Shown here piece by piece: positions 1-26,045 of a stretch of 26,066 nucleotides of DNA. The DNA is from a virus. How positions within the stretch are numbered: position 1 is the stretch's first letter; each line of letters starts with the position of its first letter. The position numbers and the translations under genes were made by a program. The stretch is from IMG/VR virus record IMGVR_UViG_3300042261_002226, positions 1 through 26,066 of that record. The stretch is one strand, 5' to 3'. The notes below the pieces were generated by a model, which made no database searches, was not told where the DNA came from, and was given only the letters and a program-made list of their open reading frames with translations.

Positions 1-510
1 GCTGCTCACCCAAATTTACAACAACATCATATCGATAAACTCGTTAATGATAAAGATCCATATGTTAAAGCTGCAATAGCCAAACACCCAAAATTACAAC
101 AACACCATATTGATGAACTTGTTGGTGATGAATATGGAATTGTTAAAGAAACAATAGCTGCTCACCCAAATTTACAACAACATCATATCGATAAACTCGT
201 TAATGATAAAGATCCATATGTTAAAGCTGCAATAGCCAAACACCCAAAATTACAACAACACCATATTGATGAACTTGTTGGTGTTGATCATCATGCTGTT
301 AAAATTGCAATAGCAAAACGATCAGATTTGCAACAACATCATATCGATACATTAGTTAATGATGACGACCCCGATGTTAAAGAAGCAATAGCTGCTCATC
401 CAAAATTACAACAACATCATATCGATAAACTCGTTAATGATGGCGACCCATACGTTAAAGAAGCAATAAAACAACATCCATTATATAAAAAATTGTATGG
501 AAATAAATAA
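1..510 (+). CDS. C-terminal part of an alpha-solenoid repeat protein (LRV/HEAT-like)
   Basis: The frame is open from the first base, so the gene starts upstream of the window; 169 codons and a TAA are visible. It consists of about six copies of a 26-residue unit with the core HHIDxLV, an acidic turn such as NDxDP, then VKxAIAxHP and a short linker to the next LQQ. Two helices per unit and the V-K/R-x-A-I-A-x-H-P pattern resemble leucine-rich-repeat-variant or HEAT/ARM-type solenoids, which usually bind protein or nucleic acid. The end (HPLYKKLY) matches the end of the protein at 1425-3131, so the two are paralogues. Bases 1-127 and 157-283 are identical, a recent duplication of a two-unit block. 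The missing N-terminus may carry a head-targeting leader like its paralogue's, but this cannot be seen. The partner is unknown. Confidence 0.85.
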   Translation, partial: AAHPNLQQHHIDKLVNDKDPYVKAAIAKHPKLQQHHIDELVGDEYGIVKETIAAHPNLQQHHIDKLVNDKDPYVKAAIAKHPKLQQHHIDELVGVDHHAVKIAIAKRSDLQQHHIDTLVNDDDPDVKEAIAAHPKLQQHHIDKLVNDGDPYVKEAIKQHPLYKKLYGNK

Positions 511-1424: not shown

Positions 1425-3131
1425 ATGAGAACATATAAACAATTAATAGCAATACTCACCGAAGATGTTGTAAGTGATAGACTTAATAAACTCAAAAAAG
1501 ATAATAAAGGTAAGATTTCTACTGACCATGATACCTTTGCTGTACATAAGGATAGTGATGCTATTATAGATCATTTTGCAGAAGCTGACCCTCATCCAAA
1601 GAAACAACATACTAATTGGATTATAAATCAATATAAACAAGGTAATTTAAGACAAGAAGATAGACCTATGGTCAATCAATCTTTAAGTAATTTTGAAAAA
1701 TATAAGAGTAAATTGGCTGTTAGAGATTTGAATAATTATGCCAATCTTTCTGAGTTAGATAGTGCTTTGGAGCCTCATATTGGTAGTGTTTCCAATAGAC
1801 AAAGAGATATAACAGAAAAAATCGAAGGTGCTGATAAAATTTTTGAAAAGAATGGTATTACAGTTCATCATTTGAAAACAAAAAAAGCTGCTTGTTTGTA
1901 TGGTAAAAATACTAAATGGTGTACTGCTAGTACAAATGAGGATGGTACTCCTTCTAACGATAATATGTTTGACCGTTATAACGCATCTGGACCATTATAT
2001 TTTGTCCGTGCTAGAGATGAAAATGGTAAGATAGCTAAATATCAATTCCAGCATGAAAATGGTGGTCAATATCAAGATGAAAAGAATCATCCAATTGATG
2101 TTAATGAATTTTTAAAAAGAAATCCTGAATTGAGGAATGTTTCTCAATGGCAGGGCAAACACCCCGCTTTTACTTCTGATGAGAATTTTGATAAACATTT
2201 TGATTCATTAATATTATCCCATACAGAAGAAACAATAGCTGATAAAAGACTTAAATCACATCATATCGATAAACTTGTTAATGATAATAGTTCTGTTAGA
2301 AAAGCAATAGTTGATCATCCAAATTTACAACAACATCATATCGATAAACTTGTTGATGATAACGACCCTGATGTTAGAAAAGCAATAGCAAGACAACATC
2401 CAAAATTACAACAACATCATATTGATAAACTTGTTAATGATGTCAGCCTATATGTTAGAAAAGCAATAGCTAACCATCCAAATTTGCAACCACATCATAT
2501 CGATAAACTTGTTGGCGATGAATATGGAATTGTTAAAAAAGTAATAGCTGAACATCCAAAATTACAACAACACCATATTGACAAACTTGTTGATGCTGCC
2601 TCTCCTGGTGTTAAAGAAGCAATAGCTGAACACCCAAAATTACAACAACACCATATTGATAAACTTGTTGACGATGATAGTTCTCTTGTTAAAGCTGCAA
2701 TAACAAAACATCCAAAATTACAACAACATCATATCGATAAACTTGTTGGTGCTGAATATGGAAATGTTAAAGAAGCAATAGCAAAACATCAAAATTTGCA
2801 ACAACATCATATTGATAAACTTGTTGAAGATAAAGATATATATGTCAGAAAAGCAATAGCCAAACATCCAAAATTACAACAACATCATATCGATAAACTT
2901 GTTGAAGATGAAAATCCTGCTGTTAAAATTGCAATAGCAAAACGATCAGATTTGCAACAACATCATATCGATAAACTTGTTGATGATAAAGATAAATATG
3001 TCAAAATAGTAATAGCTGCTCACCCAAATTTACAACAACATCATGTCGATAAACTCGTTAATGATGGCGACCCATATGTCAGAGAAGCAATAGCTAAACA
3101 TCCTCTTTATAAAAAATTGTATCCTGATTAA
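1425..3131 (+). CDS. Candidate internal head protein: targeting leader, KWCTA domain, 11 solenoid repeats
   Basis: The 568-residue protein begins MRTYKQLIAILTED, close to the T4 internal protein III leader (MKTYQEFIAE) and containing L-T-E, a fit to the (L/I)xE site of T4-type prohead protease, so cleavage after Glu13 is predicted. Residues 15-255 form a globular region with a conserved-looking block at 155-215 (GKNTKWCTAS, later GPLYFVRA and a KYQFQHENGGQ stretch) that I have seen only in uncharacterised phage proteins. Residues about 268-560 are 11 units of 26 residues with core HHIDKLV and V[KR]xAIAxHP, an LRV/HEAT-like solenoid. One unit has an extra Gln (ARQHPK). It shares its repeat type and C-terminus with the gene at 1-510. 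A hairpin terminator follows. An injected host-directed effector is an inference from the leader alone. Confidence 0.85.
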   Translation: MRTYKQLIAILTEDVVSDRLNKLKKDNKGKISTDHDTFAVHKDSDAIIDHFAEADPHPKKQHTNWIINQYKQGNLRQEDRPMVNQSLSNFEKYKSKLAVRDLNNYANLSELDSALEPHIGSVSNRQRDITEKIEGADKIFEKNGITVHHLKTKKAACLYGKNTKWCTASTNEDGTPSNDNMFDRYNASGPLYFVRARDENGKIAKYQFQHENGGQYQDEKNHPIDVNEFLKRNPELRNVSQWQGKHPAFTSDENFDKHFDSLILSHTEETIADKRLKSHHIDKLVNDNSSVRKAIVDHPNLQQHHIDKLVDDNDPDVRKAIARQHPKLQQHHIDKLVNDVSLYVRKAIANHPNLQPHHIDKLVGDEYGIVKKVIAEHPKLQQHHIDKLVDAASPGVKEAIAEHPKLQQHHIDKLVDDDSSLVKAAITKHPKLQQHHIDKLVGAEYGNVKEAIAKHQNLQQHHIDKLVEDKDIYVRKAIAKHPKLQQHHIDKLVEDENPAVKIAIAKRSDLQQHHIDKLVDDKDKYVKIVIAAHPNLQQHHVDKLVNDGDPYVREAIAKHPLYKKLYPD

Positions 3132-3205: not shown

Positions 3206-3673
3206 TCACTCCTCCTTAATTGGTATCCCCAACTCTTTCGCCCTCTTCTTTATGTTTTCCAGATATTCAGGGTCGTCTTTGAATAAAGGTAACGAATGTA
3301 TTCTGATAGTTTTTATCCTATTACTTATCCCCTCTAATGGCCCATCTATCCTTTCCTCAGCTTCCGAATTCTCCTTGTTTCTCCTATGCCTAGACCCAAC
3401 AAAATATTTACTATCATGAAATGGCTTTATCTTGCGATTGTTGGATATATCATCACCAGAAAATTCAAACGACATGTCCATCCCAACACTTATATCAGGA
3501 TTTTTATGCAAATTCTTGTTCCGAGTGAACGAAACCTTTCCACCACTTATTCCATAATGATCATGCAACCTGTTACTCCTTAATATCTCATCACCATTCT
3601 CAAATGTGGTATAATGATATAAAGTTCCGACTTGCTTCCCCTCTATTATTAAAAATTCCTTGAACCTTTTCAT
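3206..3673 (-). CDS. ADP-ribosyltransferase-like protein with head-targeting leader
   Basis: The 155-residue protein starts MKRFKEFLIIEG, which aligns with the T4 internal protein III leader MKTYQEFIAE; I-I-E at 9-11 fits the prohead-protease site. The rest is one domain shared with the N-terminal part of the upstream gene: GTLYHYT (His20), VSFTR (Ser48, Thr50, Arg51), a SNNRKIKPFHD stretch and an acidic EAEERI (Glu104-Glu107). The order His, then Ser/Thr, then Glu is that of the H-Y/S-E ADP-ribosyltransferase fold, so I read it as ART-like; this is motif-level inference. Its ATG follows the stop of the upstream gene by one base (TAA-A-ATG), so the two are probably translationally coupled. 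T4 Alt is a precedent for an injected ART. An inactive binding domain is the alternative. Confidence 0.8.
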   Translation of the reverse strand: MKRFKEFLIIEGKQVGTLYHYTTFENGDEILRSNRLHDHYGISGGKVSFTRNKNLHKNPDISVGMDMSFEFSGDDISNNRKIKPFHDSKYFVGSRHRRNKENSEAEERIDGPLEGISNRIKTIRIHSLPLFKDDPEYLENIKKRAKELGIPIKEE

Positions 3674-3674
3674 T

Positions 3675-4856
3675 TTAAAATTTACTCGATAAAAGTTTTT
3701 TGTGCCTTTCTACAAAATGTGAATGAAGAGTTTCCCAATTTTTTAGACCAGAATCTTTAAATAAATCTTTTACCTTATTCATATCAAGATTCCTTACAAT
3801 ACTTCGAATGTGTGACTTGACATAAGGTCTCTTTAAAGAATTATTGAAAATATGCGCACCTTCTGATATATCGGAATCAAGAAAACTATCCTTTTCAGAT
3901 ATATCAGAAGATCCATAATCTTTATGCAACCCATTCGCCCTGAACTCAAAAGAACCTCCATGATCAAAAGATATTAAGTTGCCCACTTTCCTGTCCCTTC
4001 CTACATTCCCCTGACCATACTCAATCCCACTCCCAAGAGCATCCCAGTTTTTAACCAAAATCCCCCCTACATATATCTTCCCTATATCCTTATGATCTTC
4101 CTTTGAAAAATTATACATGTCCCCTTCCTTAATTGGCTCCATGTTGCGATTCATCCTCGTGGAAATAGATATCCTATTACTCACAATACCACTTTTTAAT
4201 TCTGGATTCAAAGTTCGTAACCCAAGTAAACTATGTATCTTGGATGAAAGAATTTCTGTTTTTGCTTGCTCAGAATTATAAGGATGCTTAATGAAAAATT
4301 CTTCCCCAGTTTCTTTCTCTCTGTAAACTCCTCCAGAACTAGATCCCGAATATCCAGAATACTCTCGCTTCTCAAACTCTTCATCAATTTTATCAACTCT
4401 GTTTAAATATTTGTTGTATTTAAATTTTATCCCCTTTGCTTTTACATTTCTTATAACTTTTTCTTCTTCATCACTAATAGAATCATAATCCTCGCCATGC
4501 TTATTATGAATACTTATAGATTTAATGTAATCACCTATATTATTAATGGGGGGTTTTACTCTCTCTTCCGATTCAGTTTCTGCACCTCTTTTTAACCATA
4601 TCGTATCCTTGTAAGGTACAATCTTATGCCTATTACTTAGTTTGTCACCATCTATCTCCAACGAAAACCTGACTCCTTTAAGACTATCCGCTGTCCGACT
4701 CTTGTGAAGATTTTTGTCACGAGTTAACGAAACAGGCCTGCTAAATACACCAAGAACATTATTACTTAAAATACTTTGTAGCCCCTTAACACTCGTGAAA
4801 TGATATAAAGTCCCAACTTGCTTAGACTCATTTAAAAATTCCTTGAACCTTTTCAT
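3675..4856 (-). CDS. ART-like / HipA-PI-kinase-like fusion with head-targeting leader
   Basis: The ATG at 4856 is chosen over a GTG at 4898 because it gives the leader MKRFKEFLNES, nearly matching T4 internal protein III and ending in the L-N-E cleavage motif. The product has 393 residues. Residues 12-110 repeat the ART-like domain of the downstream gene (LYHF with His19, VSLTR at 42-46, ESEERV at 95-100). From about 165 the sequence looks like an atypical kinase: Gly/Ser-rich loop GYSGSSSGGVY (168-178), Lys190 in FFIKHP, Glu201 in the next helix, KNWDAL with Asp272, Asn284, and LISFDHGGSFEFRA with Asp298 as metal ligand. HipA and PI-kinase relatives share this order. I infer an ejected two-activity effector. 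A TATAAATA sequence lies 27 bases upstream. Confidence 0.82.
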   Translation of the reverse strand: MKRFKEFLNESKQVGTLYHFTSVKGLQSILSNNVLGVFSRPVSLTRDKNLHKSRTADSLKGVRFSLEIDGDKLSNRHKIVPYKDTIWLKRGAETESEERVKPPINNIGDYIKSISIHNKHGEDYDSISDEEEKVIRNVKAKGIKFKYNKYLNRVDKIDEEFEKREYSGYSGSSSGGVYREKETGEEFFIKHPYNSEQAKTEILSSKIHSLLGLRTLNPELKSGIVSNRISISTRMNRNMEPIKEGDMYNFSKEDHKDIGKIYVGGILVKNWDALGSGIEYGQGNVGRDRKVGNLISFDHGGSFEFRANGLHKDYGSSDISEKDSFLDSDISEGAHIFNNSLKRPYVKSHIRSIVRNLDMNKVKDLFKDSGLKNWETLHSHFVERHKKLLSSKF

Positions 4857-4882
4857 TCCTGTCTTTTGTTTTTTAATATATA

Positions 4883-4890
4883 TATTTATA
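4883..4890 (-). promoter_or_regulatory. Possible T4-type late promoter core (TATAAATA)
   Basis: On the minus strand TATAAATA, an exact match to the T4 late consensus, lies 27 bases before the ATG at 4856. A late promoter would suit a head protein. The motif is short and the region is AT-rich, so chance is a real alternative. Confidence 0.35.
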
Positions 4891-4913
4891 ATTCCCACCC
4901 CTCAATTCCATTT

Positions 4914-5323
4914 TAAAAAAAAAAATTTTTTTATTTCTATACAGATTTTTACTTCATAGAAATTTCTATTCAGAAAAAAATTTTTTTATTTGTTGGAGAT
5001 TTTTACTTCATAGAAATTTCTATTCAGAAAAAAATTTTTTTATTTGTTGGAGATTTTTACTTTTAAGAATTTCTATGCAGAAAAAAATTTTTTTTATTTG
5101 TTGGAGATTTTTTACTTCATAGAAATTTCTATTCAGAAAAAAATTTTTTTATTTGTTGGAGATTTTTACTTTTAAGAATTTCTATGCAGAAAAAAATTTT
5201 TTTATTTGTTGGAGATTTTTTACTTCATAGAAATTTCTATTCAGAAAAAAATTTTTTTATTTGTTGGAGATTTTTACTTTTAAGAATTTCTATGCAGAAA
5301 AAAATTTTTTTATTTGTTGGAGA
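4914..5323. repeat. Seven-copy tandem repeat of about 54 bases, palindrome-rich
   Basis: Seven units of 53-55 bases follow a partial unit. Two unit types occur in the order A-A-B-A-B-A-B. Both share a long A-run/T-run palindrome (about seven A then seven T) followed by ATTTGTTGGAGA. Type A carries ATAGAAATTTCTAT, a perfect 14-base palindrome; type B has TTAAGAATTTCTATG instead. No gene occupies the array on either strand. Arrays like this can be replication origins, protein-binding iterons or recombination sites; the sequence alone does not decide. Confidence 0.9.
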
Positions 5324-7513: not shown

Positions 7514-7543
7514 AAAAATCCCTCCATTTTATGAAGGGATTTT
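7514..7543 (-). terminator. Terminator overlapping the end of the 169-aa gene
   Basis: AAAATCCCT (7515-7523) pairs with AGGGATTTT (7535-7543) around an 11-base loop. Read on the minus strand the stem is followed by TTTTTGTTTT. The upstream arm is part of the last codons of the gene at 7529, an economical arrangement. Confidence 0.8.
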
Positions 7544-8038
7544 CTTAATCAAATTTTCTTTTTCTGATAAAAGAACGTTATATCGTTCCTGATATTCGGC
7601 CAACTGATTATCAATATGCTTGATAAAGTACTCGTTAGCCTCCTTCTCCATGACTGCTTTATTTGTATATATGTATTGTTCCATATATGGGATAATACTT
7701 TTAATCAAAAATTCCTTCTCTGATATACTCAAAGTTTCGCCATAACTTGGAAAATCTGATTTGATTTCATATCGCCCATTATCATAAAACCTTACCCGAA
7801 TTTTCCCTAATGCCCGATTTCTAAGCAAAATTTGTTTAGAAATTGGTATATCATATGCTCCAGAATTTTCTCCGTCAACTTGTGAGATAATTGTTTCATA
7901 TCTCAATTCTCCTATTGACCTCCAATATCCTCTGTCAATATATGGAAAATCACTTAAATATTTTTCAACTTTCCAAAATGTTTTCTGAATTGAATTTTTC
8001 TTCGTTGTAACGTCAATTTGAATAATGTTATTACGCAT
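7529..8038 (-). CDS. Conserved-looking phage protein of unknown function (169 aa)
   Basis: The protein has a mixed alpha/beta first part with WRSIGELRYETI and a Gly-rich KIRVRFYDNGRYEIKSDFPSYG stretch, then a long charged helix from about residue 120 to the end (NKAVMEKEANEYFIKHIDNQLAEYQERYN...), probably a coiled coil. No catalytic motif or membrane segment is visible. It has its own promoter (8081-8111) and terminator (7514-7543), so it is a single-gene unit. I do not recognise the family. Confidence 0.8.
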   Translation of the reverse strand: MRNNIIQIDVTTKKNSIQKTFWKVEKYLSDFPYIDRGYWRSIGELRYETIISQVDGENSGAYDIPISKQILLRNRALGKIRVRFYDNGRYEIKSDFPSYGETLSISEKEFLIKSIIPYMEQYIYTNKAVMEKEANEYFIKHIDNQLAEYQERYNVLLSEKENLIKKIPS

Positions 8039-8080
8039 TTTAGTATCAAATTTTTGTTAGTGTTTGCTTTACCAACAATA

Positions 8081-8111: not shown

Positions 8112-8126
8112 AAAACTTCCTGAAAA

Positions 8127-8142
8127 TGTTTCACGTGAAACA
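8127..8142. promoter_or_regulatory. Perfect parS-type ParB-binding site
   Basis: TGTTTCACGTGAAACA matches all 16 positions of the bacterial chromosomal parS consensus and extends to a 20-base perfect palindrome (8125-8144). It overlaps the last codons and TGA stop (8131-8133) of the gene at 8131-8745. No other copy was found in the window by eye, and no ParA or ParB gene is present. Confidence 0.7.
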
Positions 8143-8745
8143 TTCTGAATTGAAAATGTTTCCACTTTCAGTAAATTCTATTTTATTGATAATGGCATAT
8201 TCTGTAATTCTTTCATCCGAATTCAAATAATCATATTCCTTTTCCAAGTTTCTATACAAAGTTCTGCAAATGTCTTGATATGTATCAATAATGAAGTCTT
8301 CAATATCAGGGAAAATATTATCTAAAAATTCTGCAATGTTTGGATAAGAATTATATAGATTATTTTTGATGAATTGGATATTATGTTCTGCACAAAATTC
8401 GTGATAATAATGTCCTTTATGCTTTCCGTTAGCAACAATTCGGGCAAATTTTATCAATTCTTTTTTCCAATTGGGAAGGGAAGTAGTTTCGAGATATTTA
8501 TCAATTAGTTTTTCGTGAATGTTTGTATAGGTAAACATTGCTCCGTCTCCTTGTGAACAAAAGCCGGAAAAATAAACCTTATCGATTTCGAACAATTCAT
8601 TTTCTGATTTGAAATCTTCAACAATGTAATCATACCATTCATAGTTTAAAAATGAATTTGAATAACGAATTTTTTCAATTGCATTTTCCTTAGCAATTGG
8701 GGAAAGTTCAGGAAAGGAGAATGTAGAAAGGGAATGGATATTCAT
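8131..8745 (-). CDS. 'YFSGFCSQGDGA' phage protein (204 aa)
   Basis: The protein begins with an N-terminal FSFPELSPIAKENAIEKIR segment and then KVYFSGFCSQGDGAMFT near residue 57. These two blocks together mark a family found in many phages of Gram-negative hosts, with no established function as far as I know. The remainder is helical and acidic, with several aromatic residues. A promoter (8783-8813) lies 38-68 bases upstream. The gene ends in Cys-Phe-Thr-stop, and these codons form half of the parS palindrome, so the stop region may be held by DNA-level selection. Confidence 0.85.
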   Translation of the reverse strand: MNIHSLSTFSFPELSPIAKENAIEKIRYSNSFLNYEWYDYIVEDFKSENELFEIDKVYFSGFCSQGDGAMFTYTNIHEKLIDKYLETTSLPNWKKELIKFARIVANGKHKGHYYHEFCAEHNIQFIKNNLYNSYPNIAEFLDNIFPDIEDFIIDTYQDICRTLYRNLEKEYDYLNSDERITEYAIINKIEFTESGNIFNSECFT

Positions 8746-8782
8746 TTGAGTAGTAAATTTTTGTTAACAAGTAACCAACAAA

Positions 8783-24929: not shown

Positions 24930-26045
24930 TTATTCGATAATATGCGGAACAAAGCTGCTCCTATTATCTGTAATAATATCACCTTCCCTGATACCAATTC
25001 CAGCAGAATGAGAATCAATTACCCAACTCCCAATAATTGGTGTTTTATCATCAAATTTAGGGATATCAATGTATTGTTGGTAAATATAACCTTCCTCTCC
25101 ATATTCACCATCTGTAGAAACCTCATGACCATCACGGACAATTGTTATGTTTGCTCCTTCTCTGCTTAACATAGGTTTCTTCACGTAATCTCCTTTAAGA
25201 ACAGAAGGTTCAAAAGATGCCTGAAGGATGTTAGGATGATTAGGATATAAACGACTTAGAATAACCATGAACGCCTTATTAGACATTATCATCTTCCAGA
25301 TAGGCTCAATCCAATAAACCTTATTATAAGTTTCCAAAAGGAATTTTCCAAATTCTTCATGAATTAACCATTCATACGGATAGAGTTTAAAAATTGATCT
25401 AATTGTGTTTCCATCAAGATCGACAAAATCCCTTTCAACCTCATTAAAGCCAATATCATTAATATAGATGAATCCACTTTTAACTCCTGCCTGTATTGCA
25501 GTATCCATCATATAATTGGTAGTTATAATATCCTATGGACTATTATCAAGACAACTAAAATATAATGTTCCTCGTATATAATCCCTCAACTCTTCCCATT
25601 TACTTATCAACCTCTCATGTATTGAATTGAATTGATCCTTTTCAGAGAAAACATCTTCTTTCCACATCCATTGAATCACAGATGCTTCCAGCAGACTTGT
25701 GGGTGTATCTGCATTATACTCAAGTAATTTTAGATTAATTCCATCATAAGCAAAATCAAATCGACCATATATACTTACAGCATCATTATTCCAACTATCA
25801 ACTATGGTTGGAATAGCGAACTCAGGTATTTTCAATTCATAAAAAAGGTTATTATCAATTATATGTTGTACTGTTTCAAGGCACATTTCCTGCAATTCAT
25901 AAGTAGTATCTTCCAGAACTTGAATTTCCCTCTCAGTGAATGAGTAATATACACTTTCATTCCAATAATTTTCGTGATATATTAATCCCTGACTTTCAAC
26001 AATCTTGGCATAATCCTTTCTCGGAGTAATAATATTCCTTTTCAT
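24930..26045 (-). pseudogene. Glutathionylspermidine-synthase-like ATP-grasp gene with an in-frame UAG
   Basis: Two halves lie in one frame, separated by a TAG (25535-25533): 170 residues from ATG 26045 and 200 after it. The first has GRFDFAYDGINLKLLEYNAD and PTSLLEASVIQWMW near residues 93-126; the second has YINDIGFNE, YVKKPMLSREGANI, YGEEGYIYQQY and GSWVIDSHSAGIGIRE. These are the ordered motifs of GSP_synth family ATP-grasp enzymes, close in length (371 codons in all) to YgiC-type proteins. The break lies between strands near CLDNSP and the DTAIQAG segment. Possible explanations are amber readthrough, a decayed gene or a sequence error. ATG 25478 or nearby could restart the second half. 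The ligase reaction of the family is ATP-driven amide formation. Confidence 0.85.

Follow-up and report, generated by a model that had tools for sequence, protein, structure and literature searches.

P1, N15, and some actinobacteriophages encode their own ParB, each with its own site sequence, and phage phi29 itself carries several parS sites. DNA of phi29 (Salasmaviridae) is trapped in spores by the host protein Spo0J/ParB, as related in PMC9437464, which cites Meijer et al. 2005. In bacterial chromosomes, the site bound by the segregation protein ParB has the consensus TGTTTCACGTGAAACA as printed in PMC7383237. The stretch of viral DNA analyzed here (26,066 nucleotides; the window), a linear 26-kb fragment from IMG/VR, carries one exact copy of this consensus. 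It encodes a T4-type head-closure nuclease (gp4), polynucleotide kinase-phosphatase (PNKP), glutathionylspermidine synthase, GP88, an endolysin, a DNA methyltransferase, and three tRNAs, and is a fragment of a T4-like phage. Few of its genes have a Shine-Dalgarno sequence at their starts, and the leaders are ~50% A. Since weak Shine-Dalgarno use and A-rich leaders are a Bacteroidota trait, the host most likely belongs to Bacteroidota.

Three further features of the window were observed in passing. Glutathionylspermidine synthase (24930 to 26045) is present as two open reading frames (ORFs) in different frames, and four relatives (L121 to L124) match both halves; the split thus reads as a frameshift, which may be genuine or may stem from faulty assembly. 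A 26-residue repeat (HPKLQQHHIDKLVDD...) recurs many times in the protein encoded at 1425 to 3131, with a second, partial copy at the start of the window (1 to 510). Two adjacent ORFs within 3206 to 4898 have the N-terminal motif MKRFKEFL...KQVGTLYHYT/HFT in common and look like a duplicated gene; neither had a family match in the libraries tried.

A consensus parS at a gene boundary

Positions 8125 to 8144 form a perfect 20-bp palindrome, AATGTTTCACGTGAAACATT, whose core (8127 to 8142) agrees with the parS consensus at 16 of 16 positions on both strands; the feature, which was assigned to neither strand, was defined by sequence match, palindrome scan, and chance calculation. An earlier note made from the sequence had described an exact parS here and judged its chance occurrence to be far below one. 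Both statements held: there is no mismatch, and at the base composition of the window (69.7% AT) the exact core is expected 8.3 × 10−6 times per window. Palindromes of at least 16 bp are by calculation less exceptional (~1.3 expected by chance), and granted one such palindrome, the probability that its half-site reads TGTTTCAC is 1.8 × 10−5. Once the A/T palindromes that belong to a tandem array (4919 to 5323) are set aside, the site is the sole palindrome of at least 14 bp in the window. That array consists of ~7.5 copies of a 54-bp unit with alternating palindromes AAAAAAATTTTTTT and ATAGAAATTTCTAT, lies in a gene-poor stretch, and is possibly an origin or other protein-binding array. Chromosomal-type parS sites come in one or more copies, mostly clustered close to the origin or to parAB of the replicon. 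No second parS with up to two mismatches occurs in the 26-kb window; the single further candidate within three mismatches (24807, three mismatches) was rejected as being at chance level, with 4 of 100 shuffles giving at least as many matches.

The palindrome lies between two minus-strand genes. The gene at 8131 to 8745 encodes a 204-amino-acid protein of PHROG 5162, a family of unknown function (ORF list and family match), and the gene downstream, at 7529 to 8038, encodes 169 amino acids (ORF list), with no family or relative found in the searches made for it. Both are preceded on the minus strand by the same promoter- or leader-like module, TTGTTGGT-N-AACAAAAATTT-NN-TACT-N-AAATG, located at 8755 to 8781 for the first gene and at 8048 to 8078, ~50 bp downstream of parS, for the second; the form TTGTTGGT...AACAAAAATTTNNTACTNAAATG, common to both leaders, is found in its exact form nowhere else in the window. 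A terminator scan placed a strong intrinsic terminator at 7514 to 7544 on the same strand, at the end of the downstream gene. Given the leader common to both flanking genes and the separate terminator of the downstream one, the two look like single-gene units with parS between them, as the earlier note had proposed. That note had also placed a stop codon within the site, and indeed the TGA of the minus-strand ORF (8131 to 8133) and the preceding codons for C, F, and T (8134 to 8142) lie inside parS, so that the final codons of the gene, TGT TTC ACG TGA, are themselves parS bases.

parS in phages and in candidate hosts

At least 119 IMG/VR stretches contain the 20-mer AATGTTTCACGTGAAACATT. Two composition-matched palindromes served as controls, one shuffled (AATGTCTTACGTAAGACATT) and one with a symmetric change of one base (AATGTTTGACGTCAAACATT), and neither was found in IMG/VR. 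In INPHARED, 356 records match over at least 16 bp, a figure that includes many close relatives and is a count of records rather than of independent events, and both control palindromes again gave 0. The INPHARED matches come from Lactobacillus, Listeria, and Bacillus phages, actinobacteriophages, Vibrio, Pseudomonas, and Ruegeria phages, microviruses, and inoviruses. When grouped by the first word of the organism name and ranked by count, the tenth group holds 8 records, and Escherichia and Klebsiella therefore have at most 8 matches each, versus at least 803 and at least 686 phage records present, respectively. Escherichia coli is without ParB (PMC7383237). Among 94 nonredundant IMG/VR sites on viral contigs, 64% are intergenic, compared to 14% for random positions.

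In 12 chosen isolate phages, parS was present in one to five copies each (up to one mismatch), some of them clustered, and the reversed control was at 0 in all 12; the phi29-like phage B103, for example, has one exact site and one with a single mismatch. Sites in other phages lie beside unrelated genes, within terminal repeats, or in clusters. Terminal repeats of Pseudomonas phage phiPsa267 and Vibrio phage phi 3 (L343 and L345) include parS or a one-mismatch parS, which would thus be among the DNA at the genome ends. The inovirus bajarodino virus 72 (L340; 5.8 kb) carries five exact sites, and microviruses, including Spiroplasma phage 4, carry single sites; a host-type parS in single-stranded DNA phages with such tiny genomes was unexpected. 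A lineage that recurs in IMG/VR (L006, L013, L015, L017, L021, L022, and similar records) has an intergenic parS flanked by a conserved GCCTAA...TTAGGC palindrome.

On the host side, the exact 16-mer was found in 67 of 295 Bacteroidia genomes (23%), usually in one or two copies, with the reversed control at 0. The comparison with chromosomal parS that the earlier note had suggested thus yielded an identical site in Bacteroidia, the host group itself being deduced from the phage leaders. In Chryseobacterium jejuense, an ORF interpreted as the C-terminal portion of MnmG (mnmG) has its stop at 1181, and the full 20-mer starts six bases further on, at L204:1188.

If the site were the partition centromere of a phage-plasmid, parAB would have to lie outside the fragment. 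The earlier note held that any ParB gene of the phage's own would be found there, and the 26 kb of the genome fragment encodes no HTH_ParB or ParB_N domain. Some plasmid prophages do have Par proteins of their own, genes could be missed in a fragment, and 5 of 50 parS-bearing viral records do encode a ParB_N-like domain. However, none of these 50 records encodes HTH_ParB, and the virion and replication genes of the window (head-closure gp4 and PNKP) are T4-like; T4-like phages are, to our knowledge, virulent. We therefore consider a phage-encoded ParB unlikely for this site. Across the 50 records, the same domain counts imply that the ligand is usually the host's ParB, and parS-bearing phages probably borrow it. 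Taken together, the chance statistics, the enrichment over control palindromes, the identical site in Bacteroidia, and the scarcity or absence of ParB domains make the identification of 8125 to 8144 as a putative host-type parS well supported.

The site might also serve mainly in ParB-dependent gene control, silencing or timing the two flanking single-gene units by spreading or roadblock. Lying past one stop codon and ~50 bp upstream of the leader that follows, it would be well placed for such a role, and in Pseudomonas aeruginosa ParB represses promoters near strong parS sites, according to PMC5521831. The varied contexts of parS in other phages (unrelated genes, terminal repeats, and clusters) fit a genome-wide role better, however, and there is only a slim chance that local control is the main function.

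Origin of the site

An alignment-based search returned 80 loci homologous to the gene at 8131 to 8745. The 21 homologue ends that were read have a common stop point, G-x-x-Y/F/I, followed by zero to two residues more; in contrast to these 21, the window protein alone has the extension NSECFT, which runs ~six residues past the homologue ends and together with the stop codon forms a lineage-specific tail at 8131 to 8151 (minus strand). A conserved overlap of stop codon and site was considered and ruled out by these same homologues, which stop ~six residues sooner. No parS with up to one mismatch was found in 36 homologue-bearing phage records (~2.0 Mb), and none with up to two mismatches was found in four glutathionylspermidine-synthase relatives. 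The relatives of the window recovered from IMG/VR (four single proteins and one alignment) and from INPHARED (megablast) were all distant. Since the homologues stop earlier at a common point, the palindrome lies 3′ of the ancestral stop. This earlier stop and the homologue-bearing records without parS mark the site as a lineage-specific, later gain; the reading frame just runs into it, and the stop-codon overlap is an accident of that gain with no significance in itself.

The end of the gene and the parS arms have the 12-bp stretch GAAACATTTTCA in common. On the plus strand, TGAAAATGTTTC at 8151 to 8162 is an exact 12-bp direct repeat of 8121 to 8132, which spans the gene end and the outer parS arm, and together with the other arm it also contributes to an imperfect inverted repeat of 13 bp. 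This sharing could reflect a local duplication or a parS that came with a flank seen in host sites. Chromosomal parS sites of Alistipes and Geofilum likewise read AATGTTTCACGTGAAACATTTTC, and their flanks likewise read ...GAAACATTTTC, so the shared stretch can derive from parS itself. In the extreme case, an inverted or direct duplication of the gene end would have produced a palindrome with no role that happens to equal parS. Such a mutational accident would account for the direct and inverted repeats that join gene end and parS arms, for the earlier stops of the homologues, and for the lack of a relative with the site. Even so, the half-site TGTTTCAC would still need luck (1.8 × 10−5), and the host flanks in Alistipes and Geofilum read alike; we regard this origin as highly improbable.

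An intrinsic terminator hairpin with a chance likeness to parS, the alternative named in the earlier note, is also very doubtful, for although the palindrome sits at a 3′ gene end with a possible 8-bp stem and a T-run further on, and the terminator of the neighboring gene likewise overlaps its stop, the terminator scan missed it, a random palindrome would equal parS with a probability of 1.8 × 10−5, and in place of a stable GC-rich stem with an immediate T-run it has a stem of −5.9 kcal/mol and two T's in the first eight bases, versus −15.8 kcal/mol and six T's for 7514 to 7544, our yardstick for a genuine terminator in this window.

Proposed host ParB loading and comparison with known systems

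The explanation we favor, and consider probable, is that a T4-like phage, probably of a Bacteroidota host, gained a host-type parS 3′ of an ancestral stop and that this site loads host ParB for positioning, condensation, or local silencing. It draws on the exact consensus, the identity with sites in Bacteroidia, the enrichment in phages over controls, the relatives without the site, and a window that encodes no ParB. Several observations weigh against it. There is only one parS in the 26-kb window, and some other phages also have single sites; the wider relatives do without parS, so the site is dispensable for the wider group; the host was assigned by way of its leader sequences, and only 23% of sampled Bacteroidia have the exact sequence; and the 12-bp repeat of gene end and parS arms leaves room for an origin by local duplication. 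The earlier note had envisaged recruitment of host ParB for segregation, positioning, or silencing. The host-type identity of the site stood, and the three roles appear indistinguishable from sequence alone.

Under the favored explanation, host ParB would recognize and bind the phage parS and, once bound, would close into CTP-dependent clamps that slide over the neighboring phage DNA, by the mechanism described in PMC12704722. Least certain among these steps, the clamps may link the phage genome to the ParA and SMC segregation and compaction machinery of the host. In a slow or carrier-state infection, the genome could then be positioned or carried with the nucleoid via ParA and compacted via SMC, and both flanking genes or neighboring promoters might be dampened.

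More broadly, host-type parS in phages looks like a widespread and little-described habit; no survey of it was found in the literature searched, which does not show that none exists. We tentatively suggest, at somewhat less than even confidence, that a host-type parS with no ParB encoded by the phage constitutes a widespread and repeatedly evolved means by which unrelated phages (T4-like, Herelleviridae, T5-like, actinobacteriophages, microviruses, and inoviruses) load host ParB clamps, and perhaps SMC. The window site would be a freshly gained example, recognizable as such because the reading frame of the gene runs into parS. If this is true, a single 16-bp element, small and portable among hosts with a conserved ParB, would give phages access to the apparatus by which the host segregates its chromosome and loads SMC. 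Our survey lists isolate phages of Lactobacillus, Listeria, Bacillus, Vibrio, Pseudomonas, Ruegeria, Arthrobacter, and Gordonia that bear parS.

Among known systems, the phage-plasmids with their own ParABS (P1, N15, and some actinobacteriophages) resemble this locus in having a centromere on a phage genome but differ in encoding the cognate ParB, which was not found in the window fragment. The Noc-binding site NBS (TATTTCCCGGGAAATA) is also a palindrome of the ParB/Noc family and is related to parS; at the discriminating positions, the window site agrees with parS and not with NBS. The chromosomal ParABS parS of Bacteroidia, as downstream of mnmG in C. jejuense, offers the identical 20 bp just past a gene stop, whereas the window copy is on a phage genome with no parA, parB, or mnmG nearby. 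The nearest precedent is the phi29 family, in which a virulent phage employs its host's own ParB. In comparison, the window phage is T4-like, its probable Bacteroidota host is nonsporulating, and it has one site in 26 kb; if our explanation is true, the sporulation story of phi29 would extend to nonsporulating hosts.
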